From assembly GCA_016946835.1 (NCBI GenBank), contig JACVTC010000040.1:1037501-1101500 (forward strand): a DNA stretch of 64,000 nt, in the 5' to 3' direction. The translations under genes and the position numbers were made by a program. The notes beneath the pieces were generated by a model, which was not told the origin of the DNA, did not search any database, and saw only the letters and a list, made by a program, of their open reading frames with translations. Below, in pieces: positions 1,700-52,381 of this stretch. Origin of the DNA: Neocallimastix lanati (nom. inval.). Its lineage: Eukaryota > Neocallimastigomycota > Neocallimastigomycetes > Neocallimastigales > Neocallimastigaceae. Each line of letters begins with the position of its first letter. The stretch's first letter is position 1.

Positions 1700-4037
1700 A
1701 CAAATGAATTTGAATAAAATTCATGAATGGTACTACGATACAGGTGCATATGAGCACATAATTAGCAATAAAAAAATTTTTTTTGAAGGACTTTAAAAAG
1801 GGAAAAAGTATATTTACGTTGTGCTAATAATTCAGTAATTGAATTTGAAGGATATGGAGTGTATGAATTTTGTATAAACGAAATTTATTAAAAAAAGAGT
1901 ATTATATTCAGAAAAGGTAAACAAAAATCTCTTTAGTGCCAGAGAATTAGCAAAACTGAGCATAATATCAATCATTAAACCCTTAAACAATTAAAAAGAA
2001 AGATTAAAATTAAGAAATATAACGAATAAACATATTGTGTACTTTGAATCCAATTATTATAATCAATTCAAAATGGAAGTCTTTATATAAAGTAAGCAAT
2101 AATAGCTATTAAAAAAAAAAAGAAATATTATCAATAGATAAAACTGATAATATAAGCATAGAAATATGGCATAGAACATTGGGACATTTTTACCAAAATA
2201 ATATAAACAAATATTTAGAAATGCATAATATTAAAAGTCCATTATGTATAGATTGCAAAATATCAAAAATGAAAAGAATAGCACATAATGGTGAACCACC
2301 CAAAACTAAAGAAAAATTAGAAATTATTCATTCTGATATTTCTGGACGTGTGAACCCTTCCATCAATAATAAAAAAATATTTTATTACTTTTATGGATGA
2401 ATTTTCAAGAAAAGTTTGGATTTTCACCCTGAGGCACCAGATATTAGTATTATTGATTTCTTTATATATTTAAATAATCAGTTTAAAGAATTATCAATCA
2501 AAAAAATTTTAGAACTGATGGGTTGCTATATTTATAACAAAATACCACATTCTGGAAACAAAAACTTAATTCCAGATAAATTATTTGAAGATAAAAAAAA
2601 AAAAAAAAAGAAAATATCTATAAAACACTTAAGAACATTTGGTTGAGTATGCTATTATAAAGAATTTACCAAACATAACCCAAAATTTGTACCAAACTCG
2701 AAAAAAGAAATATTTCTAGGTTTCGATAATCAAATCTACTCATATATAATTATGGATGGATGAAAAAAAATTTAAATATCCATCATGTTAGAGAAGTTGA
2801 ATGTTTAGAAAATGAACCTTCGAATTTCAAATATAAAAATACATTAAAGGAAGACCCTTATTTTGCCTTTGAAAACTTAAACCAAAATAATATGGGACCT
2901 ATTATTAACAATAGCGAAGAAAGAAATTTAATTCCAGAAGGAAATATTGAGGAAGACATAAATAATAATAATAACGAAGAAATAAATAATGTAGAAGAAG
3001 AATTAAATAATGAAGAAATAAATATTGAAGAAAATATTAATATGGATATTGAAAATAATCAAAATAATGTAAGAAACATAGTAGAAAATATAAATTAAAG
3101 AACAGCTCTGGAAGAAGAAATCGCAAATGAAGCAAGAAACAATAATATAATATTTCTAAGGATACATTACCCCCAAAACATTACTAACAATAACGAAAAT
3201 CTTAAAGAAAATAATGTAAATGATAATAATAATTTAAATAACAAAGAAAATATCGATAATATAATGAAAAAATCAATAAAAAAGGATAATAATATCTCAT
3301 GTGGAGGAGAATATTCTAATAACAAAGAAGTTAATATGGATACAGAAAAGTATATTTTAAATGAGAACTGTAATAATAAAATTTTGACAATAAAAGATAA
3401 AAACAATATAAGAGATAATAATAATTATAAATATAATAAACACAACAATACCATGAATATAGTAAAAAACACTAAAAGTATTTCAAATAAAGACAACACA
3501 AAAATGAATTCTAAAATTTTCATTGATGAGCATAATAGTTCGAAATTTATTTCTGAGAATAATAATAAATCATTTAAGAGCGATACATTTGATTTTATTT
3601 ATAAAATAAACAATGAAATACATAACGATAAAATGAAGATATATAATAATAAAGAAAATAATATAGATAACTTACCTTCTACGTCCAATAATATCCTGAA
3701 TTGTAAAAATGTTACTCCACATAAACCTATTGATGATGATCATCAAACTATGGAAGAGAAAAATTTTTCAAAAAATGACGAAAATTTTATTAATGAAAAA
3801 ATTTTTCAAAATGATGAAAATAATTATATCAATATTTCTTCTAAAAATGATGTGATTAATCCACTTAATATCTATGACAACTTTCCTGATATTAATAGTA
3901 ATGCTTCTTCTATTAATAGTCCTCATAGCAATCATAATAAAAACATAAATTATTTTAATGAAAATCCTAGTTTGGAGGGGATTAGAACTATTGAAAATAA
4001 TACTGAAAATTTTAAAAATTCTTCTCATAATAACTGA
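1700..4037 (+). pseudogene. Decayed Ty1/copia element: protease, integrase, Asn-rich linker
   Basis: The order of remnants is that of copia Pol. A protease Asp-Thr-Gly triad in a Trp-Tyr-Tyr-Asp-Thr-Gly context lies near 1728-1745. The pre-integrase zinc region has a C-x2-C (Cys-Ile-Asp-Cys) at 2248-2257, followed by the integrase His-Ser-Asp motif at about 2329-2338. An integrase C-terminal part follows at 2416-2760 (Leu-Arg-Thr-Phe-Gly; Phe-Leu-Gly-Phe-Asp). From 2760 to 4037 there is a long Asn/Glu/Ile-rich linker, open for 112 and then 257 codons, of the sort that separates integrase from reverse transcriptase in the other copia element here (7600-8900). Stops at 2398, 2644 and 3096 break the frame. 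No reverse transcriptase follows on this strand. Confidence 0.7.
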
Positions 4038-4109
4038 AAAATGTATATGAGTTTTTATAATAAACTTTATTTATTTTTGTATTTATTTAATACATAAATT
4101 TTTTATTGA
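4038..4109. other. Junction between opposed copia remnants
   Basis: Short AT-rich spacer between the end of the plus-strand linker and the far edge of the minus-strand LTR. Nothing recognisable is in it. Confidence 0.5.
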
Positions 4110-4344
4110 GGTTAAGAACTCACTTTTTTTAAGATAATAAAAATAATTAATTTTTATAGTAAAAATTATATCTTTAATCATGTGATTATTCTATTAATAC
4201 ACATAGATAGATGTTACACAACATAAAAATATAATAATAAAATATTAATATAAGATAAGAATATAATATTGATAATAATATCAGAATATAAAAGTATAAT
4301 ATTAATAATATAAAAATATAAAATAAAATGTGAATATTTTAACA
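4110..4344 (-). repeat. 3' LTR of minus-strand copia element
   Basis: Read on the minus strand, the LTR begins TGTTAAAATATT at 4344, directly after a polypurine tract (complement of 4345-4353). The far edge is inferred at about 4110, where the plus strand reads GGTTAAGAACTC. This resembles the TGTTAAGAGTC end of the LTRs at 25005 and 26074. An internal TTGTGTAACA and nearby AATAATCACATGATT are shared with the copia LTR at 17778, so the two belong to one family. The far boundary is approximate. Confidence 0.6.
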
Positions 4345-5490
4345 TTCCCCCCTAAATAAGATTTTCTTGAAAATTTTGTTTGGGAAGAATAACATTTTAT
4401 TTCCATTGGCATCTTATGTGAGTACATCGGCAAGATTGTCTTTGGATTTGATATGCTGTAAAATAACATTATTATTTTCAACAAGTTCCTTGAAGAAATG
4501 GTAACTTACTCGCATGTGTCTCAGTCTTTTTCCAATAGCAAAATTTTCGGCGGAATATAGAGACTAGCTTTATTGTCACCATAGAGATTTATTTTGAATT
4601 TTTTATTAAATAGTTCTTCAAGAATATTTTTTAACCATAGACCATTTTGCAACGGCTTCTGATAATGCAACATATTCTGCTTCGGCAGTGGATCTTGAGA
4701 CACATTGTTGTTGTCTTGACATCCATAAAACTGGTCCTGAAGCTAAGGAAGTTGATATTTCCAGATGTCGATTTACTCTTCGTTATATCTCAAGCGAAGT
4801 CGGAGTCGGTATAGCCTTTAAGATTTCCATCTCTTTAATATTGTAAATAATAATCTTTGGTTTGGTTAATATATTTAAATATTTGTAATACCTTTTTCTA
4901 ATCAGTCATATTTGAGTTTTTATTTTTTCTTGATGCTTTGTTTACTGCACAAGCAATATCAGGACTTGTGCATTTTGCTAAATGTATGAGAGAGCCTACT
5001 GCGCTTTGATAGATATTACTATCGAATGGTTCTTTGATGTTTTCACCTACACAAGGAGTAGAGGATTTTTGATTTTCATTTATTTTGAATCTTTTTAAAA
5101 TATCGTTAATATATTTTCTTTTGTGAAATATTATATCCATATTCAGTAGGTTCGACAGTTATTCAAAGTATATGATTTACTGAACTACATTTTGATATTT
5201 TAAATTTATTTTTAATTAGTTCAACAGTGGAGTTTATTTCATTATCTAAGCCTGTAATAAGCATATCATCTACATATAATGCAACAATGCAAGTAGTTTC
5301 TTTTTGAGAGTTTGATTTTGAAAATAAACATTGTTCACTTTTTAGTTGAGTAAAACCTATATTCTTCAGAAAATTAGAGATTGTTATATTCCACATTCTT
5401 CCTGCCTGTTTCAATCCATATAAAGCCTTGTTCTGTTTCCAAAAACCGTTTTTGTAGTTTGGATCACTTAAAAATCTATGTAATGTTAGA
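4345..5490 (-). pseudogene. Decayed Ty1/copia reverse transcriptase and RNase H, minus strand
   Basis: On the minus strand from 5490 the frames give Trp-Lys-Gln-Asn-Lys-Ala-Leu-Tyr-Gly-Leu-Lys-Gln-Ala-Gly-Arg (5450-5400). The reverse transcriptase catalytic box Tyr-Val-Asp-Asp-Met follows (about 5260-5275), then Ser-Thr-Pro-Cys-Val-Gly and Pro-Asp-Ile-Ala-Cys-Ala-Val-Asn-Lys-Ala (5060-4930). RNase H remains lie at 4703-4521 (Trp-Leu-Lys-Asn-Ile-Leu-Glu-Glu-Leu-Phe; Asp-Asn-Lys-Ala-Ser). Frameshifts separate the blocks. A G-rich polypurine tract (complement of 4345-4353) abuts the LTR. Only the 3' half of Pol survives; the 5' side ends next to the solo LTR at 5516. Confidence 0.8.
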
Positions 5491-5515
5491 GATTATCATA
5501 CTAATATGATACTAC

Positions 5516-6358
5516 TGTAAAGAGTTTAAGAGAAACAAATTACAAATAACAAAATACACAAAATAGTTTAAACATGTAATAAAAAAATTCTTTTTTAATA
5601 AACAATCTTTTATTAATTTTAAAAAATAAATCTCTTCTCGTTATTAACTATTTGATAGTCAATAACTAATACATCGATTTAAATAATGAATTTTACATGT
5701 ATTTATATTTTTTCATGATGACATTTTAATATATCAAACCTATTTAATATACATATATTACTATTTATTTATAAACAAAATATTTATTAATAATTTTATT
5801 AAATAATAATTAACTAAAACTAAACAATAATTAATTCATTAAACTTTCAACTTATTTACAATAATAATTAAATTCAATAAAAACTCATTTATTAGATATT
5901 TATTATATAAATATTATTAATACTAATGTTTATATATTTACAATTCAAAAGTATTTTTATAAACTATTTAAACTAATTTTAACTATTTAAAACTATTCCG
6001 AAATTAATTTTAAAGTATTTTAAACTAACTAAACTAAGTTAAATAGAATAACTATTTTAAATAAACTAAATTAACTAGAATAACTATTTTAAATAAACTA
6101 AATTAACTAGAATAACTATTTTAAATAAACTAAATTAACTAGAATAACTATTTTAAATAAACTAAATTAACTAACTTAAATAAATTATTTAAATCAAATT
6201 TATTATCCAAAATTATTTAAATAATAATTTTTCCTTTATGAAAAGTTTACATAAATTTATAATTAATTTTCATATATGTAGATCATAAATTTATGTAATT
6301 TATTACATTAATTAATTATGTAATAATTAATTATTAAAGATTTTATTAAATCTTTACA
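5516..6358 (-). repeat. Solo LTR of a Ty3/gypsy element
   Basis: The 843-bp block starts TGTAAAG and ends CTTTACA, perfect inverted termini identical to the start of the intact gypsy LTR at 9058. Internal stretches align with the reverse complement of that LTR, for example the ACATCGATTTAAA region near 5671 and the AAAGAT...ATCTTTACA end. It is flanked by ACTAC (5511-5515) and ATTAC (6359-6363), a 5-bp duplication with one mismatch. No internal gypsy sequence remains, as expected after LTR-LTR recombination. It is diverged from the intact copy and contains its own 32-bp repeats. Confidence 0.75.
6045..6176. repeat. 32-bp tandem repeat inside the solo LTR
   Basis: About four copies of a 32-bp unit that begins TAGAATAACTATTTTAAATA. 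Copies are nearly identical, so the amplification is more recent than the divergence of the surrounding LTR from the intact gypsy LTR, which lacks it. Confidence 0.8.
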
Positions 6359-20300: not shown

Positions 20301-21187
20301 ACCATTATTATAATCTGGATGACATTTATGATTGTTAATGAATTCATATATAGTTTTTCTATTTAGGTCATTTGTAATTATGTTTGGATTCATAGGTGGG
20401 AGTGGACTTTAAATTAAGTAAGAATTTTTAAGTTATATAAATAAGATTATTATTATAGAGTGAATTAAGAAGAAATCAATTATTTAATATATTTGATATT
20501 AACAATTAATAATATATATGTAAATATCAATATAGTAATAACCAATTATTTAAAAATTTATTATCAACATAAAATATATATTAAATATTTAATAATAATT
20601 ATTAAATATACTAGTATATCGCTATGTATATTATTTTATATCAACTATTTTTTATTTAAATTTAATAATTTTACAATTCTTTTTTATTTTTATAATATTA
20701 TACAATATACAATTTTGTATGAAATAGTTACATTTACTTCTTACATTATATAAAAGAGACCAATCAGATTCATCAACGTTTTTTTTTTGATTGCAGGTTT
20801 AATTTATTGGTTTTTCTAATCCTTATATTTAAATTTAAAACGTAACAAAAATAAAAATTTAAACTTATAATAATTATAATATTAAAGCATTAAAATAAAT
20901 ATAAAATTTGTTATAATAAATTTGATAAATGTATTATAATATTTTAATATTTAATAATATTTTAATAGTTTTATTATTAAATTTTTATTATTAATTTTTA
21001 TTAATATATTTTTATTATTAAATTTTTATTATTAAATTTTTATTAAATCTAATCCAATCAAAAAACTATTTTAATTATATAAAAAGAACAAAGTAGTACA
21101 ATACTTTAGTTCTCTCTTTCTTTCAATTAAAAATATATAAAGAACCAATAATTATGTTATTAAATTATCATATTTATTTATTATAGC
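20301..21187. other. Non-coding AT-rich stretch before the MULE
   Basis: No supportable gene. The 86-codon frame at 20493-20753 is Ile/Tyr/Phe-rich low complexity. The last bases before 21188 are ordinary AT-rich DNA in which the MULE inserted. Confidence 0.6.
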
Positions 21188-21196
21188 ATAAGATGA
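21188..21196. repeat. MULE target-site duplication, left copy
   Basis: ATAAGATGA, matching ATAAGATAA at 27386-27394 (8 of 9 bases, the first seven identical). Nine bases is the typical Mutator-like duplication length. Confidence 0.7.
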
Positions 21197-21296
21197 ATGT
21201 GCATTTCGAAAATTTTTCTTTCGAAAATTTGTATTTTGTTGTATGGCTTAAATATTTTTAATTTTAAGACACTTAATTTTATTAAAATTTTAATGA
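21197..21296 (+). repeat. Left terminal region of MULE-A
   Basis: This 100-bp end recurs almost unchanged at 49353-49463 (shared TTGTTGTATGGCTTAAATAT and AAGxCACTTAATTTTATTAAA). Its outer 50 bp is an inverted copy of the right end at 27330-27385. Confidence 0.75.
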
Positions 21297-21975
21297 ATAA
21301 TAATTAATTAATTAAATAAATAAAATTACAATTCTTAAAAATTTTCAAACACGTAATCTTACGTGGAGCGTATATCTAATTGTATCATAATTTTGTGGCT
21401 TTTTTCTACAATTTTTAAAAAGACATATATTCACAATATGGCGTGAATAATAATTGTGGTGATATTTTATGACGCAAATTTATAAGCCACCAAGGATTTG
21501 GCGAAATTCAACTGGACGAAATTCAACTTTTGGCGAAATACAACACTTCAATAAATAATAATTAGGTTAGGTATTTCTATTTAACATTAAACAATAAAAT
21601 AAAAATAAGAAATAAGAAAACTTATTTTTAAACATTGAAAAATAAAATAAAAATAAATAAACATTTTATTTTTTAATGCTGAAAAAATAAAATAAAAAAA
21701 AATTAAGAAATATGAAAACTTTTTTTTTTAAACATTAAAAACTAAAAAAAAAAAAAAAAAATAAAAAATAAAAAATAAAAAATAAAAAAAAATAAAAATA
21801 AATAAATAAAATAGTAAATAAAGAAATAATAAATAATTAATAATTAAATAATTATTTAAATAATTATATAATTAATTAAAAAAAGGTTTATTATTTTAAA
21901 TATTAAAAAAAAAAAGTTTCAAAGCATTTAAAAGTATATTTATTAAAATATTTTATTGAAAAATTTTAATTATCA

Positions 21976-23396
21976 ATGGAAGACAATATAGAAATTGAAA
22001 TAAGTGAAACAAATCGAGGAAATGAACAAATTATTATTAATAAAAAATACAAATTTTTCATTTCAACGGAAAGATAAATCAAAAATTTATAGATGCACTG
22101 AATAAGACTTTAAATAAATGTAAATCTTTAATTATTTTAAATGATAAAAAGGTGGTTTTAAAATATGAAAGTTTACATAACCATCTCGAAAAAGAAATTG
22201 ATGTGTCTATATCAGTAGCAAAACATAAAATTAAGGAAGAAATTAAGAAAAATTCAATTCCTATGGATATAAAACCTAAACATATATTTTAATGCCGTTT
22301 CTCAAGAAATGGGACTTATGTCCCGAATATAGTACAATTAGATCCCAAATAATAATATAAACAATTTCCTCCAAACATAAAAAGTTTTGATGATATTCCC
22401 ATTGAATCAAAATATTATAAAACGAAAAGAAATGAAAAATTTATGTTATTTAAAAAAACTGATCTAATAATCTTTCAATCACCATTCCAAGCATATTTAT
22501 TTTCGAATTATCATAAAAATATATTTGTGGATGGTACATTTTATGCAGCACCGAAATTTAGTTATCAGTTATTTATAACAGGAACTTATGTTGGGGAATT
22601 TAATATGTTTTACACTACTTCCATTTCTATATTAAAAAATAAAAAACAATCTACATATGAAACATTATTTAAAGAAATAAAAAAAATGCAAATAAATTTA
22701 GGAGTAATACATTAATTACTACAATTAATTTTCATTGTGATTTTGAACAAGGTATATCTAATGCCGCAAAAAAAGTTTTTCCCAATATAAATATTAAATA
22801 TTGTGTTTGGCATTACAAAAGATCATTAGAAAAACAAAAAAATATATTGTTATCATGAAGTGAAAAATAATAATGATGTATATATTTATTATAAAGCTAT
22901 TTCGAACTTACCGTTTATAAACCCTAACTATATATTTGATATTTATATTATAATAAAAAGAATTTGTCAAGAAAAAAAGTATAATAATTTTCTACAATTT
23001 TTAGAATATTTTAATAAAAATTATTTACTTAAGTATAATGTTAATAATTGGAATTATTATGAAAATATAGAGCATTTAACAAACAATGCATCAGAATCTT
23101 ATAATAGCTACTTAAATAATATATTTCCAAATAAACCTTTATTTTATAAATTAATATATATATTAAAAGAAGAAGAAAACTTATCTTATAATGATTATCA
23201 AAGGAGAACTAAAGGAAATTGGAAAAAAAAAAAGCAAAAAATATTTAGTGCAACTGATGAAATTAAAATTTTAATTGAAAATTACAAAAGTAAGGAAATA
23301 AATTTATTTTATAATGGATGCAACAGAAATGAATTAGTTAAATTATGGAAAGATTGTTTAATTGATTTAAACGATATAAATATTAATTTAAAATAA
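21976..23396 (+). pseudogene. MULE transposase, decayed copy A
   Basis: Starts at an ATG (21976) that reads Met-Glu-Asp-Asn-Ile-Glu. An N-terminal FLYWCH/WRKY-type zinc region is recognisable (Cys-Thr-Glu, then Leu-His-Asn-His-Leu-Glu at about 22174-22190). The DDE domain follows: first Asp in Phe-Val-Asp-Gly-Thr-Phe (22529), second Asp in His-Cys-Asp-Phe-Glu (about 22740) next to Cys-Val-Trp-His-Tyr, and the Glu in Asn-Ala-Ser-Glu-Ser-Tyr (about 23091). It ends at TAA 23394. Comparison with the copies at 50965-52381 and 53108-54090 shows a 2-bp loss near 22103, an extra T near 22291, a small deletion near 22352 and further shifts near 22690 and 22853. The last 178 codons (22860-23396) are intact. 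Confidence 0.85.
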
Positions 23397-23406
23397 ATAA
23401 TTTTAA

Positions 23407-24126
23407 ATTTTTGGATTTCTAAAGAGAGACAATCAATTTGATACGTTAAGGACTTGGATAAATTAAGTAAATCTGAACTAAAACTGGAATAGTTTAACAT
23501 TTCATTTTTATCATGAATAGAAATCTTTAATTCATTTAAATTATTTTGATTTTTCTGGTTAATTTCAATGATTTCAATAATGTTGTCCAAAACATTTTCA
23601 ATGTTATGTATTTCAAGAAAGTTATGATTGTTTATTTTTGTATTAAGGTTATCATTCATCCTATTTAGAGTTTTTAATTCGTGAGAATTGTCCGAAAATT
23701 CAAATTCTGTATCGGTAGGAGTATATTCTGAATCAGATTTATTATTCATTTTGTGTTGAGTGAGCATAAACCTGGATAAGAAATCGGCTAATTTATTATC
23801 TTTGCCTTGTATGTAGATAGGATAACAGTTAAACTCACAGATATGTTCTATCAATCTAAGTTTTCTATTAGATTCCACTTTTGATCCTTTGTTAATAGTA
23901 AAAACTAAATTTTTATGATCTGTTAATATTAAAATTCGTTGACCTTGTCTGATAAGCCACTTAAAGTGTTCTAAAGCGTTGCTGATTCCTAAAAGTTCTT
24001 TGTCAAATATTGAATATTTTGTTCAGTTGTATTTAATACCCTACTATAAAATCCTAGAGGCTCTAACTCAATTTATTGTAGTTTTCAGAAGTAATATATA
24101 ATGAAGATTTTATAATATCCAAAGAA
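23407..24126 (-). pseudogene. Ty3/gypsy RNase H fragment inserted in the MULE
   Basis: Read on the minus strand from about 24040: Phe-Asp-Lys-Glu-Leu-Leu-Gly-Ile, then Leu-Ile-Leu-Thr-Asp-His-Lys-Asn-Leu, then Tyr-Ile-Gln-Gly-Lys-Asp-Asn-Lys-Leu-Ala-Asp-Phe-Leu-Ser-Arg (to about 23780). This is the end of a gypsy RNase H domain. It runs on into an acidic and Asn-rich stretch (open from 23878 to 23309). MULE sequence matching the copy at 50900 stops near 23406 and resumes at 24127, so the block is an insertion. Its ends carry short inverted TTTGGAT/ATCCAAA and a possible AATTT duplication. No LTR accompanies it. Confidence 0.7.
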
Positions 24127-24336
24127 TTTAAAAAAATGCTAGAAAAATACAAATTTATTTATTTTAAATTTATATTTATAATCGTTTAAATAATAATTAA
24201 ATAATCTTAATATAAAATAATGTTAGAAAAATAAAAATTTATTTACCTATTGTGTTTATTTAATAATCTTAATAGAAATTATCTTTTAGTTATTTTTATT
24301 AAATAATTTATAACTAAAACCGATTTATTTGATACT

Positions 24337-25004
24337 AGTTAAAATTTATAATTATATAATTATAAATTTTATTAATATCAATATCAATATTATATAATTA
24401 TAAATTTTATTAATATCAATATCAATATTATATAATTATAAATTTTATTAATATCAATATCAATATTATATAATTATAAATTTTATTAATATCAATATCA
24501 ATATTATATAATTATAAATTTTATTAATATCAATATCAATATTATATAATTATAAATTTTATTAATATCAATATCAATATTATATAATTATAAATTTTAT
24601 TAATATCAATATCAATATTATATAATTATATATTTTATTAATATCAATATCAATATTATATAATTATAAATTTTATTAATATCAATATCAATATTATATA
24701 ATTATAAATTTTATTAATATCAATATCAATATTATATAATTATAAATTTTATTAATATCAATATCAATATTATATAATTATAAATTTTATTAATATCAAT
24801 ATCAATATTATATAATTATAAATTTTATTAATATCAATATCAATATTATATAATTATAAATTTTATTAATATCAATATCAATATTATATAATTATAAATT
24901 TTATTAATATCAATATCAATATTATATAATTATAAATTTTATTAATATCAATATCAATATTATATAATTATATATTTTATTAATATCAATATCAATATTA
25001 TATA
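24337..25004. repeat. 38-bp tandem array inside the MULE
   Basis: About 17 near-identical copies of a 38-bp unit containing TATAATTATAAATTTTATTA and ATATCAATATCAATAT. The related MULE at 50640-50725 has only two to three copies, so the array expanded in this lineage. It resumes for part of a unit at 26252 after the inserted LTR element. Confidence 0.92.
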
Positions 25005-25190
25005 TGTTAAGAGTCAGGAATTTAGGTTTAATAATTATATCAACTTTATTAATATATTTTATGATAAAGAGCTGCAAATATTAAATTATATTAAATTACA
25101 TGCTTTTATATTAATACATTGTGGCTCATACATTACATTACATACATTACATTTTAATACATTTAAACTCATATTTCACATATTCTAACA
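25005..25190 (-). repeat. 3' LTR of the TRIM-like element
   Basis: In element orientation it starts TGTTAGAATATGTG at 25190 and ends at 25005. It differs from the other LTR by small indels, including TATTCTAACA versus TAACA at the outer start. Adjacent G-rich tract (complement of TTCCCCCTAAAT) is the plus-strand primer. Confidence 0.88.
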
Positions 25191-26057
25191 TTCCCCCTAA
25201 ATCAAGTTATTCTAAATGAATAATTTTGGTTTATAGGTGAATATGTGGATTCCATTATATATTTAAAATAAATTACATAAATATTTTAATTTCTATTATT
25301 AATAAAATTTTATCTAAGATATCATATCGCGTTCTGTAGTAAACGTCTTAAATCTTTATATTATTTTAGTAGTTTATTTCGTTTTATTTACCCTCTTATT
25401 ATATGTACGTTTTACTGGTTAAACGTTTAAACCTTTAATTTTTATGGGTAAAATTTTTATATACTGGATTGGATACTCATTAGGTTTTACACCATCCATT
25501 AATATTTTATATTTCGACAACTCTTCGGTTTAACACTTTGGTTTTTACGTCTAATTGTTTATTTATTTATGGCTACTCTTATGGATTTACGCCATTTAAC
25601 TACTATTTCATAAGTTAATTTAGTTTATTTTCTTAATAAAATGATTTTAATAATATTTTAAGATATCTTGTAATTATTGGTTAATATATTTTAGATTTAT
25701 TAATATTTAGATTCGTTATGAATTTCTATTCATTAATTTTATTTATTTTAATTTTATTTATTTTAGTAATCATGTTTTCTTACTCGTAATTTGCCTTCAT
25801 TTTGCGAATGTAATTTTATTTTATAATGTTCCTTTATGGGTGATTATTCTTTTATCATTTATTCAATTTTAAAGCGTGTTTCTTGAAATTAGAACTTTAG
25901 ATCATTTAAATTTCACTGTAGATCAATCTTCAATTAATTATTCATCAGTTGACATAATGGCAACTCTCACCATAAATCTAGGTCTTCAAGTACTTTCTTC
26001 TTGACATAATATTATTTTCCGGCTAAAAAATTTATTTTAAAATTCCTTTGAAGAGTC

Positions 26058-26073
26058 GATGAGACTCTTAATC
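26058..26073 (-). promoter_or_regulatory. Primer-binding site matching the tRNA-Lys(CUU) anticodon arm
   Basis: The plus strand reads CGATGAGACTCTTAATC immediately before the LTR. TGAGACTCTTAATC is the anticodon stem-loop of the common eukaryotic tRNA-Lys with CTT anticodon, as I recall it. On the element strand it directly follows the 5' LTR. Drosophila copia and yeast Ty5 are known to prime from a cleaved initiator-tRNA half at its anticodon loop. A second site of this kind is at 27528. Confidence 0.65.
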
Positions 26074-26251
26074 TGTTAAGAGTCAGGAATTTAGGTTTAA
26101 TAATTATATCAACTTTACTAATATATTTTATGATAAAGAGCTGCAAATATTAAATTATTAAATTACATGCTTTATATTAATACAATGTGGCTCATACATT
26201 ACATTACATACATTACATTTTAATACATTTAAACTCATATTTCACATAACA
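26074..26251 (-). repeat. 5' LTR of the TRIM-like element
   Basis: 178 bp, about 95% identical to 25005-25190 by eye, including TTTATGATAAAGAGCTGCAA and GTGGCTCATACATTACATTA. It is flanked by the primer site on the inner side and by the ATATA duplication on the outer side. Confidence 0.88.
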
Positions 26252-26382
26252 ATATAATTATAAATTTTAATAAATTCAAATTGTTATTTTATTTTAATAA
26301 TAATTGATTCATATTTATCAAACATTATTAATATTACTACGCAAATAATTAATTATTTTAATTGGATCATGTTTTTTGATGA

Positions 26383-26790
26383 AAATATGCTAAAAATGGT
26401 TTCTATGCTGGTGTCAACATTGATAATCCAACTGAAATTGCTGTGTTTGATGACTTCCGTGCTGGTATTATGAGATCTGAAGAATTCATCAATCTTATTG
26501 ATTATCGTGTACAGAATTTAAATATCAAAGGTGGTTCTGCTAAAAATTATTATAAACTAATTATTTTTACAAGTGTTCAAAAATTAAGCAGTATTTATCG
26601 TAATGTAGAAGATTTCGAAAGAAGAGAACAATGGGAACGTCGTATAAACTTAGTTAACATTTATCCTCCTTAAAGAGTACATTTAGGTGGTCTTCCAGTT
26701 GGCTACAGAACTATTTAAGAACTATTTAATGACTTTGAATATAAAATTAATGATGAAAGTGATAACACTAGAGTTATAATAAATTAGATT
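26383..26790 (+). pseudogene. CRESS-DNA virus/plasmid Rep helicase fragment
   Basis: The frame open from 26383 to TAA at 26671 matches the second half of a circular single-stranded DNA replication protein. A Walker B box Val-Phe-Asp-Asp-Phe-Arg is at 26443-26460. The conserved Ile-Lys-Gly-Gly-Ser comes about 30 residues later, then a motif C region Ile-Ile-Phe-Thr-Ser (about 26560), and Gln-Trp-Glu-Arg-Arg-Ile with the arginine finger near 26630. The N-terminal HUH nicking domain and Walker A are absent: homology starts just after MULE sequence ends near 26372. Two more stops follow in the downstream tail (26671-26790). In an active Rep this part is the superfamily 3 helicase that unwinds the circular genome. 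Here it is a dead fragment, and the source virus or plasmid cannot be named. Confidence 0.75.
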
Positions 26791-26799
26791 AGTTTTAAT

Positions 26800-27385
26800 T
26801 AAATTTTATTAAGTTTTTATATTTTACATGTATTTTTTCTTAATAAATAAATATTGATGAGATATATCTGAATATATAGCTGGTCCAATCAATTTTATAC
26901 CACAAACATAAGTAATGCATGCAGTAGTAATTAATAAAGCTATTAATTATTTTTTAAACATTTTAATTTATAAAATTAATACTTTAATATAATATTATAA
27001 AAAATACTAATTATAAACCTATTTATATATTTATTTTTTTTTAATTATTCAATTATGTAATTACGTATGTAATTCTGTTGATAATATAAACAAGGTATTA
27101 ATAATAATTAATAATACTTAAAATAAAAAAAATATATATAATAATTATTTTATATATACAGTAATTATATATATATATTTTTATTTAATTTTCTAAAAAA
27201 TATTTTTTTAGTCATAATAAACGTTTGTCTTAATTATTTTCATTATCATTTAAAAATTTATTTATTCATTTATAATTTATTTATTAATTTATTTATTTAT
27301 TACATTATAATACCCCATGTTTTCCGAAATGCACTACAACAAAATACAAATTTTTGTAATAAAAATTTTCGAAACGACACCCCCC
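26800..27385 (+). repeat. Right terminal region of MULE-A
   Basis: 26800-27060 is AT-rich with no gene. From about 27070 to 27385 the sequence is the reverse complement of 49464-49790, including GACAAACGTTTATTATGACT and the terminal CATTTCGAAAATTTTT. This defines the shared MULE end. Confidence 0.75.
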
Positions 27386-27394
27386 ATAAGATAA
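27386..27394. repeat. MULE target-site duplication, right copy
   Basis: ATAAGATAA directly after the terminal CCCCCC of the MULE; partner of 21188-21196. Confidence 0.7.
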
Positions 27395-49463: not shown

Positions 49464-49796
49464 GGGGGTGTGTCATTTCGAAAATTTTTATTACATAAAT
49501 TTGTATTTTATTGTAGTGCATTTCGGAAAACATGGCGTATTATAATGTAATAAATAAATAAATGAATAAATAAATTATAAATGAATAAATAAATATTTAA
49601 ATAATAATAAAAATAATTAAGACAAACGTTTATTATGACTAAAAAATTTTTTTTTAGAAAATTAAATAAATATATATATATATAATTACTACATATATAA
49701 AATAATTATTATATTTTTTTTATTTTATTTTAAATATTATTAATTATTATTAATACATTAATACCTTGTTTATATTATCAACAGAAAATACAGATT

Positions 49797-50200
49797 GAAT
49801 AAAATAAAATAAAATGAAATAAAATAAAATAAAATAAATTGTAGAAACATAAATATAAGTACAGATTGAATAAAATAAAATAAAATAAAATAAAAAGTAG
49901 AATATTAAATAAGAAAGTACAGATTGAATAAAATAAAATAAAATAAAATAAAATAAAAAGTAGAATATTAAATAAGAAAGTACAAATTGAATAAAATAAA
50001 ATAAAATAAAATAAAATAAAATAAAATAAAAAGTAGAATATTAAATAAGAAAGTACAAATTGAATAAAATAAAATAAAATAAAATAAAATAAAATATAAT
50101 AAAATAAAATAAAATAAAATAAAATAAAATAAAATAAAATAAAATAAAATAAAATAAAATAAAATAAAATAAAATAAAATAAAATAAAATAAAATAAAAA
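49797..50200. repeat. (AAAAT)n with interspersed 27-bp spacer, minisatellite
   Basis: Blocks of (TAAAA)n of growing length alternate with spacers such as GTAGAATATTAAATAAGAAAG followed by TACAAATTGAA. About five blocks end in one long uninterrupted run (50103-50198). Confidence 0.9.
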
Positions 50201-50964
50201 AAATATAATATAATAATTCTTTTATATATATAGGAATCTTATATATTTTAATTTTTTTTCATTTATTTTTCTAAAAAAAAAAATTTAGTTATAATAACGT
50301 TTGTCTTTTAATTATTATATTTTATTATAGTAAATAAAAAAATTTAAATGAAAAGTAAATAACTTTTATTATTTATAATTCATATTTTCATAAACGATAT
50401 ATATATATATTAATTTAAATGATATAAGAATTAAGAATTAAAACAATAAGAGTTGAATAATTGATCCTATTAAAATAATTTATTATTTGCATAGTAATAT
50501 TTATAATGTTTGATCAATATGAATCAATTTATTATTAAAATATAATAATAACAATAATAATTTTAATAAAATAATAAAAATCTTTTATTGAATTTAATAC
50601 TTTTAATAACATAATTAATTTTGAAAAGTATATTGATATTAATAAAATTTATAATAATATAATATTGATATTGATATTAATAAAATTTATAATTATATAA
50701 TATTGATATTGATATTAATAAAATTTTAACTAGTATCAAATAAATCGGTTTTAGTTATAAATTACTTAATAAAAATAACTAAAAGATAATTTCTATTAAG
50801 ATTATTAAATAAACACAATAGGTAAATAAATTTGTATTTTTCTAGCATTTTTTTAAATTAAGATTATTTAATTATTATTTAAACGATTATAAATATAAAT
50901 TTAAAATAAATAAATTTTTATTTATTTAGCATTTTTTTAAATTAAGATTATTTATTTTAAATTA

Positions 50965-52381
50965 ATATTTATATCGTTTAAATCAATTGAACATTCTTTC
51001 CATAATTTAATTAATTCATTTCTGTTGCATCCATTATAAAATAAATTTATTTCCTTACTTTTGTAATTTTCAATTAAAATTTTAATTTCATCAGTTGCAC
51101 TAAATATTTTTTGCTTTTTTTTTTTCCAATTTCCTTTAGTTCTCCTTTGATAATCATTATAAGATAAGTTTTCTTCTTCTTTTAATATATATATTAATTT
51201 ATAAAATAAAGGTTTATTTGGAAATATATTATTTAAGTAGCTATTATAAGATTCTGATGCATTGTTTGTTAAATGCTCTATATTTTCATAATAATTCCAA
51301 TTATTAACATTATACTTAAGTAAATAATTTTTATTAAAATATTCTAAAAATTGCAGTAAATTATTATACTTTTTTTTTTTGACAAATTCTTTTTATTATA
51401 ATATAAATATCAAATATATAGTTAGGGTTTATAAACGGTAAGTTCGAAATAGCTTTATAATAAATATATACATCATTATTATTCTTCACTTCATGATAAC
51501 ATAATATATTTTTTTGTTTTTCTAATGATCTTTTGTAATGCCAAACACAATATTTAATATTTATATTGGGAAAAACTTTTTTTGCGGCATTAGATATACC
51601 TTGTTCAAAATCACAATGAAAATTAATTGTAGTAATTAATGTATTACTCCTAAATTTATTTGCATTTTTTTTATTTCTTTAAATAATGTTTCATATGTAG
51701 ATTGTTTTTTATTTTTTAATATAGAAATGGAAGTAGTGTAAAACATATTAAATTCCCCAACATAAGTTCTTGTTATAAATAACCGATAACTAAATTTCGG
51801 TGCTGCATAAAATGTACCATCCGCAAATATATTTTTATGATAATTCGAAAATAAATATGCTTGGAATGGTGATTGAAAGATTATTAGATCAGTATTTTTA
51901 AATATCATAAAATTTTCATTTCTTTTCGTTTTATAATATTTTGATTCAATGGGAATATCATCAAAACTTTTTATGTTTGGAGGAAATTGTTTATATTATT
52001 ATTTGGGATCTAATTGTACTATATTCGGGACATAAGTCCCATTTCTTGAGAAACGGCATTAAATATATGTTTAGGTTTTATATCCATAGGAATTGAATTT
52101 TTCTTAATTTCTTCCTTAATTTTATGCTTTGCTACTGATATAGACACATCAATTTCTTTTTCGAGATGGTTATGTAAACTTTCATATTTTAAAACCTCCT
52201 TTTTATCATTTAAAATAATTAAAGATTTACATCTATTTAAAGTCTTATATTCAGTGCATCTATAAATTTTTGATTTATCTTTCCTTTGAAATGAAAAATT
52301 AAATTTGTGTTTTTTATTAATAATAATTTGTTCATTTCCTCGATTTGTTTCACTTATTTCAATTTCTATATTGTCTTCCAT
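50965..52381 (-). pseudogene. MULE transposase, copy B
   Basis: Start codon complement at 52379-52381 (Met-Glu-Asp-Asn-Ile-Glu), stop near 50968. It keeps the FLYWCH-like Cys/His region (52270-52150), the first catalytic Asp in Phe-Ala-Asp-Gly-Thr-Phe (about 51820), the second in His-Cys-Asp-Phe-Glu (about 51615) with Cys-Val-Trp-His, and the Glu in Asn-Ala-Ser-Glu-Ser-Tyr (about 51265). A 2-bp loss near 52033 (compare 53454-53463), a short deletion near 51995 and further shifts near 51660 and 51385 break it. The C-terminal 130 codons are intact. It is closest to copy A and copy C. Confidence 0.85.

Follow-up and report, generated by a model that had tools for sequence, protein, structure and literature searches.

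A dead fragment of a CRESS-virus Rep gene inside one copy of a Mutator-like element in the gut fungus Neocallimastix lanati

How does a piece of a viral replication gene come to lie between the ends of a DNA transposon? The question is raised by a 64,000-nucleotide stretch (the window) of the genome of Neocallimastix lanati, an anaerobic gut fungus. An earlier note had read a block at 21188-27394 as a Mutator-like element (MULE) carrying a Rep fragment, either captured in the manner of Pack-MULEs or left by a replicon that inserted into the MULE and then decayed. The block does enclose a MULE, but the earlier span included flanking DNA and the exact element is shorter (Table 1).

Table 1 Features of the Rep-bearing MULE, in window coordinates.
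Feature	Position	Strand	Evidence
Left target site duplication (TSD), CATAAGAT	21187..21194		Empty-site alignments
FLYWCH-type MULE, single insertion	21195..27384	+	Empty sites; L049 alignment; MULE and FLYWCH domains in sister copies
Left terminal inverted repeat (TIR), ~50 bp, with a shorter outermost part than sister copies have	21195..21244	+	Alignment of ends
Decayed MULE transposase gene	21971..23400	+	96.8% identity to window copy 2
Secondary insertion with Gypsy-type RNase H fragment, 715 bp	23410..24124	-	Break 23409/24125 relative to L049; RT_RNaseH E 5.7e-6
38-bp tandem array, 17 copies	24351..25004		Repeat reading
Non-autonomous LTR element, ~1.25 kb	25005..26251		LTRs ~25005-25190 and ~26074-26251; flanked on each side by the 5-bp duplication ATATA
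Helicase part (3' third) of CRESS-virus Rep, up to natural stop	26369..26787	+	Homology to Rep proteins and relics
Viral 3' flank and right junction zone	26788..26838	+	ACATGTA common to C744 relic; MULE alignment
MULE right arm beyond the Rep substitution	26849..27384		89.5-94.6% identity to 29/29 other copies
MULE second gene, leftover 5' end; small secreted-looking protein (signal peptide judged by eye)	26849..26961	-	Sister copies
Right TIR	27335..27384	-	Alignment of ends
Right TSD, CATAAGAT	27385..27392		Empty-site alignments

The ends of the window MULE match each other over about 45 bp in a local alignment, in line with the inverted ends of about 50 bp described before, and the identical type of ends is found in sister copies, with 9-bp TSDs where these were read (AAATTGTTA at L054, TATAAAAGT at L055). 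The flanking duplication, previously given as 9 bp with 8 of 9 identical, is real and consists of 8 exact bases. From sequence alone such a TSD would be weak evidence in DNA this AT-rich: in random-point trials, 8 consecutive matches within ±3 were seen in 1.2% and at least 8 of 9 in 4.3%. When the MULE was removed and its flanks joined, 19 places in the genome matched across the joint at 88-90% identity, along with one shorter match. Several of the 19 lie about 5.3 kb from each other, so they look like LTR pairs and not 19 independent elements. At all four empty sites fetched, the left homology stops at 21194, the right homology begins at 27385 and CATAAGAT is common to both. Both ends are therefore those of one insertion, and an origin from two different insertions is ruled out.

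MULEs have a TSD of 8-11 bp, and the element has a TSD in this range, TIRs and, in its sister copies, the transposase domain. On one 90-aa piece of the window transposase the MULE domain scored E 0.004, below the cut-off; in sister copies PF10551 (MULE) was found above it (E 1.1e-9 and 9.8e-11), and L050 has both the MULE (E 1.1e-9) and the FLYWCH domain (E 8.3e-8).

A Rep helicase fragment does lie between the transposase and the right end, as first proposed. An open piece of 96 amino acids (26383-26670) shows up to 82% identity to Rep proteins, and the natural stop codon is present at 26785-26787. The fragment begins at about residue 185-200 of a Rep of 320-340 amino acids; the HUH endonuclease domain and the P-loop part are absent, and the reading frame is disrupted by a frameshift near 26384 and by in-frame TAA codons at 26671 and 26716. 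The open piece holds FDDF and IIFTS residues, which we take to be Walker B-like and motif-C-like, respectively. On its own it had no Pfam match, and the C15 Rep relic had no PDB match as a single sequence and matched PF02407 at E 0.044 only. A profile of 21 relatives matched the Replication-associated proteins 9pqj (E 1.6e-10) and 9pqq (E 1.9e-10), in the SF3 helicase core. The origin nonanucleotide TAGTATTAC was not found anywhere in the window MULE block; one TAATATTAC occurs at about 26329, within MULE sequence, and TAGTATTAC adjoins the C124 relic (L072:723). The insertion of the Rep fragment in the MULE is real and dead, with no evident function.

Relative to sister copies, the interior homology of the MULE stops at 26369, close to the 26372 previously taken as the start of divergence, and is back by 26849; base 26369 is compatible with both MULE and Rep. 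Both junctions lie within MULE sequence with the MULE order correct, and the right junction zone overlaps ATGTATTTTT, a stretch common to sister copies. About 750 bp of MULE, including most of the gene for the small secreted-looking protein, has been swapped for about 460 bp of CRESS-virus DNA that runs from the 3' third of Rep through the stop codon into part of the 3' flank, and the second MULE gene is truncated by this substitution. Simple addition of Rep to the MULE is ruled out, since Rep takes the place of sequence kept in better copies. The related copy at 49464-52381 (window copy 2), which had served as the Rep-free state, indeed has no Rep but has itself undergone deletion and expansion in this arm.

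The window MULE is longer than sister copy L049 (6.2 vs 4.2 kb) because of secondary insertions, and both the Gypsy fragment and the LTR element add to its length. The site of the Gypsy insertion is unbroken in 19/19 other fetched spanning copies and in window copy 2. The LTR pair is 96.7% identical across the aligned part. A similar, shorter tandem array is present in L008. The match to the right arm starts at 26849 or farther left in 26 of 29 copies (exceptions L025, L027 and L029). The window copy departs unevenly from the family majority: 19/536 in the right arm (highest of 28 rows), 11/366 at the left end (rank 7 of 10) and 14/1426 in the transposase part (lowest of 11 rows). The arms may therefore have different histories, a point against the explanation favoured below.

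We favour repair of a break or gap in the MULE with viral DNA as filler, and we give a probability of roughly 0.6 to one MULE copy having acquired its dead CRESS scrap in this way. The figure includes breaks caused by the MULE as well as chance breaks, and as the chance case is also treated below as an alternative, the two probabilities overlap. The MULE would have suffered a double-strand break or gap, by excision or from another cause; in the repair it would have lost sequence of its own and gained a piece of circular-virus DNA as filler, the left joint sharing 1 base and the right one about 5-10. Viral DNA in an infected cell is a probable donor, as is a relic that has meanwhile disappeared, since the relics found in the assembly reach 76% DNA identity at best and are each rejected as the source on that ground. 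Entry of Rep before or after the landing of the MULE would both fit, and nothing was found to date the one relative to the other. We count for filler repair the second unrelated fragment in the same copy, the Gypsy RNase H piece absent from all spanning sisters. Internal deletions occur elsewhere in the family, with breaks joined by overlaps of 9, 7, 1 and 3 bp in L057, L059, L061 and L062, and L058 has a deletion plus a tandem duplication; these come from a biased sample, the extra deletion-bearing copies having been fetched mostly for an odd-looking arm. In coordinates of the L049 element, the right breakpoint of the window copy (~3660-3689) falls between those of L059 (3634) and L061 (3703).

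Ordinary viral endogenisation, with virus DNA joined to a break in a resident and passive MULE, is a special case of filler repair with overlapping odds, and is a serious contender although we would bet slightly against it. Counting the window, the genome holds nine Rep relic loci, and no MULE sequence of the window family surrounds Rep at the seven tested of the eight others (all but C124:680655; for C412, C124:1032811 and C699 the test covered only 0.8-0.95 kb); residence of these relics in this MULE family is thus rejected (0/7). In that test we discounted AT-rich matches of about 65-75%, a few of up to 88% over A/T runs of 40-100 bp, obtained without the low-complexity filter, and L048 (68%) and L006 (67%) obtained with it; L047 has in addition a 79-bp match at 85% to part of the LTR element of the window copy, not to the MULE. 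Neither of the findings that the earlier note would have taken as refuting its reading was made. With 1124 first-look candidates of no more than 4.2 kb each, the family would take up 2.4% or less of the 199 Mb, and nine random integrations would give about 0.2 hits in it; by our arithmetic this is not rare enough to exclude chance. The earlier idea of a replicon entering the MULE and decaying is plausible to this extent, but Rep was not simply added, and the 750-bp loss and the filler pattern also fit gap repair of the MULE. At one relic, C744, two Rep pieces lie 2675 bp apart and are only 71% alike, which rules out a clean tandem provirus; two putative capsid-like pieces there, read from composition, matched no Pfam family.

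It is unlikely that Rep was picked up elsewhere by Pack-MULE-like capture and that the element was then transposed into its present repeat. Rep does lie between two ends inserted as one unit, and gap-repair-like rearrangements are present in this family, but no second Rep-bearing copy was found. The search for other MULE copies with the same insert gave one match of 100% in the assembly, all others being at 72-76% DNA identity, and Rep occurred in 0/45 MULE loci, representing 29 distinct copies other than that of the window. The Rep piece has not multiplied in this assembly, and from a single Rep-bearing copy movement cannot be shown. A Pack-MULE is by definition an element without transposase; the Pack-MULEs of plants, reportedly described by Jiang et al. 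in 2004, have MULE ends around a foreign gene fragment. The window element is like them in that its MULE ends enclose such a fragment, and unlike them in that it keeps transposase remains and its fragment comes from a virus, with no donor found and no multiplication seen.

An assembly chimera is very improbable. Misjoins do arise in DNA as rich in AT and repeats as this, but the empty sites are clean and the MULE order is kept at both junctions. Of the two, only the left joint (LDHVF..KYAKNG) has independent support: it is spanned by the representative sequence of the protein cluster P0095, which stands for 11 contigs and 6 member sequences (longest 8768 bp), and is thus seen outside the 1.34-Mb contig, making an error there unlikely. 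Hardly any weight attaches to Rep as a retained functional part of the MULE, for which the open frame and its motif residues speak, given the frameshift, the two TAA codons, the missing nuclease and P-loop parts and the single copy.

The earlier note knew of no case of transport on a fungal MULE. Something comparable is published for Tuber melanosporum, where a geminivirus-like Rep is carried by an amplified TIR transposon that has two transposase ORFs, 37-bp TIRs and no obvious TSD; the transposase type is not named in section 8 of the paper (Liu et al. 2011, PMC3198968). There are 42 Rep genes or remnants, all but one in one clade with >95% identity, amplified in that genome (PMC3198968). 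Both systems are fungal TIR elements that have transposase ORFs and enclose a broken CRESS Rep, whereas here there is one copy, the element is a MULE and its 8-bp TSD is proven by empty sites. In contrast to the geminivirus-like Rep described there, relatives of the window Rep show weak similarity to Viral_Rep (PF02407).

CRESS-like Rep proteins from Piromyces finnis (P0014, P0021, P0024) and Piromyces sp. E2 (P0030, P0096), which are longer, are 74-82% identical to the window piece. P0014, P0021, P0024 and P0030 fall in the same Rep clade, as do database contigs of about 2.7-3.05 kb (P0003, P0005, P0007 and P0017 among them) that look like free viral genomes by size. In the Rep tree, all 8 gut-fungal rows given form one strongly supported group with 18 other database rows, 10 of which are on contigs of 2.7-3.05 kb. 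Scans of viral contigs by protein pattern gave 5 and 12 matches with no relative among them, and an exact-pattern scan gave none. No open literature was found that joins Cressdnaviricota and Neocallimast, and hits for CRESS with Neocallimastix or Piromyces were unrelated by title; the host link may already have been reported in other literature.

The Rep clade thus points, with good probability, to gut fungi as hosts of these CRESS viruses. A broader view is speculative and rather unlikely as a whole: Neocallimastigomycota would be natural hosts of CRESS viruses of about 2.8 kb that enter their genomes repeatedly, and in one lineage a MULE would have taken DNA from an infection and moved it as cargo. 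The locus is a case, proven by empty sites, of a piece of virus lying within a transposon of an early-diverging fungus and, if the 2.7-3.05 kb contigs are viral circles, gut fungi would be a testable host for them.

The window lies on contig C335 in the 199-Mb genome of Neocallimastix lanati, an anaerobic fungus of the gut (Neocallimastigomycota). The earlier note had taken the block at 21188..27394 for one Mutator-like insertion, and comparison with genomic places where the element is missing bears this out. Inverted repeats lie at the block ends, 21195 and 27384, and FLYWCH and MULE transposase domains were found in sister copies of the window MULE. The target duplication at the window block has a chance occurrence of 1.2-4.3% in such DNA and is, alone, weak evidence; 9-bp target duplications were found in the sister copies read for them, L054 and L055. 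When the sequences beside both MULE ends were fused and matched to the genome, 19 places aligned with the joint within the match (query 36-200) at 88-90% identity, and one further, shorter match began at query 66. In all four empty sites fetched, left-flank homology extends up to 21194 and right-flank homology starts from 27385, the two sharing CATAAGAT. The MULE was therefore inserted as one unit into a repeated element. This empty-site comparison is the decisive test for a single insertion, and an origin of the two ends from different insertions is dismissed, since 4/4 empty sites join both flanks.

A genome search with the MULE right end gave 1124 first-look candidates, 40 of these scored, and 29 sister copies, not counting the window copy, were compared. 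The piece homologous to 26264-26369 was present in 21/29 copies (within the fetched 1.5 kb, E 1e-8) and absent there in eight. In sister copy L008 it is followed by 749 bp and then by the homologue of 26820-27387, and most other copies having the right arm align with L008 without a break. In the window copy, MULE homology ends at 26369 against all four copies compared and is clear again by 26849; Rep occupies the gap. Base 26369 at the left joint is compatible with both MULE and Rep, and the right joint falls within a shared ATGTATTTTT-like stretch. The observation of a CRESS Rep fragment between MULE ends was confirmed and sharpened to a replacement of interior MULE sequence. A search for other MULE copies with the same Rep insert, as the note had proposed, found none: Rep was absent from 45 loci representing 29 distinct copies (0/45), and the whole genome gave a single high-identity match to the Rep piece.

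The segment lost in the window copy holds, in sister copies, most of a second MULE gene. Its product is 149 aa, cysteine-rich and secreted-looking in 3/18 copies read and 146-148 aa in 2/18; the gene is shorter or broken in the remainder. Of its 31 relatives, every named one is from Neocallimastix (lanati, californiae, 'constans'). A roughly 300-bp MITE-like derivative, in which the two MULE ends are fused, was recognised by eye at L008:2250-2550.

Features of the window MULE, its sister copies and other Rep relics
Feature	Location	Strand	Remarks
Second MULE gene	L008, about 574-1460	minus	also in other copies; remnant at window 26849-26961
Non-autonomous LTR element	window 25005-26251		5-bp duplication ATATA; inside MULE, adjoining 38-bp tandem array
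5' Rep fragment (L072)	C124:1032500-1033450		flanked by 83-nt direct repeats at 222-304 and 859-941
C744 relic	L047 (C744:183000-192900), about 3200-6200		Rep pieces and capsid-like open frames

Relative to a Rep of 320-340 aa, the Rep piece starts near residue 185-200, and it ends at its natural stop (26785-26787); ACATGTA is common to its 3' flank and the C744 relic. Judged against relatives it has a frameshift near 26384, and two TAA lie inside its match to database protein P0003, at 26671 and 26716. Functionally it is ordinary, a dead relic. The top protein matches, at 82% identity, are P0014 (Piromyces finnis) and P0017, and a profile built from 21 relatives matches solved viral Reps. For a helicase-segment tree, 43/55 protein rows passed the E-value cut and were joined by four N. 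lanati pieces (47 rows); seven short or partly matching rows were removed by hand, and P0001 was omitted in favour of its relic piece. All eight gut-fungal rows (four N. lanati, three P. finnis, one Piromyces E2) fall inside one 26-row group (support 100/99), within which the position of the window piece is not fixed. They are interspersed there with 18 other database rows, requiring four label changes. The longest contig is 2742-3046 bp in 10 of those 18 rows, 1.2-2.1 kb in six, and 3441 and 6241 bp in the rest; among relatives of the C15 relic it is 2.5-3.15 kb in 24/63.

Rep-like matches occur at nine loci: C15, C224, C744, C124 (two), C412, C699, C760 and the window. The earlier note had held that Rep in the same genomic context without MULE ends would speak against its reading; no such case emerged, and a window-type MULE around Rep was absent at the seven examined of the eight other relic loci (weak AT-rich matches discounted). 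The 5' part of Rep is carried by C124 (L072) and C412 (L071); the nonanucleotide TAGTATTAC lies in L072 (723), within a stem-loop by eye, and a longer variant in L071. The direct repeats of L072 are 71% alike, with the final 33 nt or so nearly identical by eye. At C744, two Rep pieces 2675 bp apart are merely 71% alike, and between them, on the opposite strand, lie one basic and one other open frame. We read both frames as capsid remains; database comparison gave no match for them. A further piece resembling one of them (53% identity) lies at C112:898344. Locus L048 (C760:559000-568900) holds a more divergent Rep helicase at 4655-5116 (28-35% identity, P-loop-like sequence), with long open frames of unknown kind upstream.

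An assembly artefact at the left joint is made unlikely by P0095. This cluster representative of 103 aa shares all 96 aa of the window Rep piece, and its first residues come from the MULE side of the left joint. P0095 represents 11 contigs and six member sequences (longest 8768 bp), the joint having been read in the representative; this support extends to the left joint alone.

As to mechanism, a break or gap inside the MULE may have been repaired with uptake of foreign filler DNA. Internal deletions in other MULE copies show short overlaps at their joints (9, 7, 1 and 3 bp), and in one other copy a deletion is accompanied by a tandem duplication. The eight copies of the second batch were picked for an odd-looking arm, which inflates the deletion rate. 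A Gypsy RNase H fragment was a further gain in the window copy and is missing from 19/19 spanning sister copies. These deletions and this gain are consistent with filler-DNA repair. It is also plausible that a break in an abundant repeat received virus DNA by chance: by arithmetic from the 1124 candidates, the MULE family accounts for no more than about 2.4% of the genome, against nine relic loci. Capture of Rep by the MULE, a reading offered in the earlier note, is possible; its transport as MULE cargo is unproven. Divergence is uneven: among 28 rows the right arm (26849-27384) ranks highest, and among 11 rows the transposase part (21971-23400) ranks lowest. Two MULE templates may have contributed to this copy.

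A fungal transposon bearing a geminivirus-like Rep has amplified in Tuber melanosporum (PMC3198968); it has 37-bp TIRs, two transposase ORFs and no obvious TSD. The N. lanati MULE is distinguished from it by the type of virus, by the Rep-bearing element being single and by a proven TSD. The main text of PMC6446971, on MULE diversity, contains 'Neocallimast' 0 times; gene capture is the subject of PMC13317346. The interest of the N. lanati locus lies in a virus fragment nested in a MULE and in the hint it gives that gut fungi serve as virus hosts.
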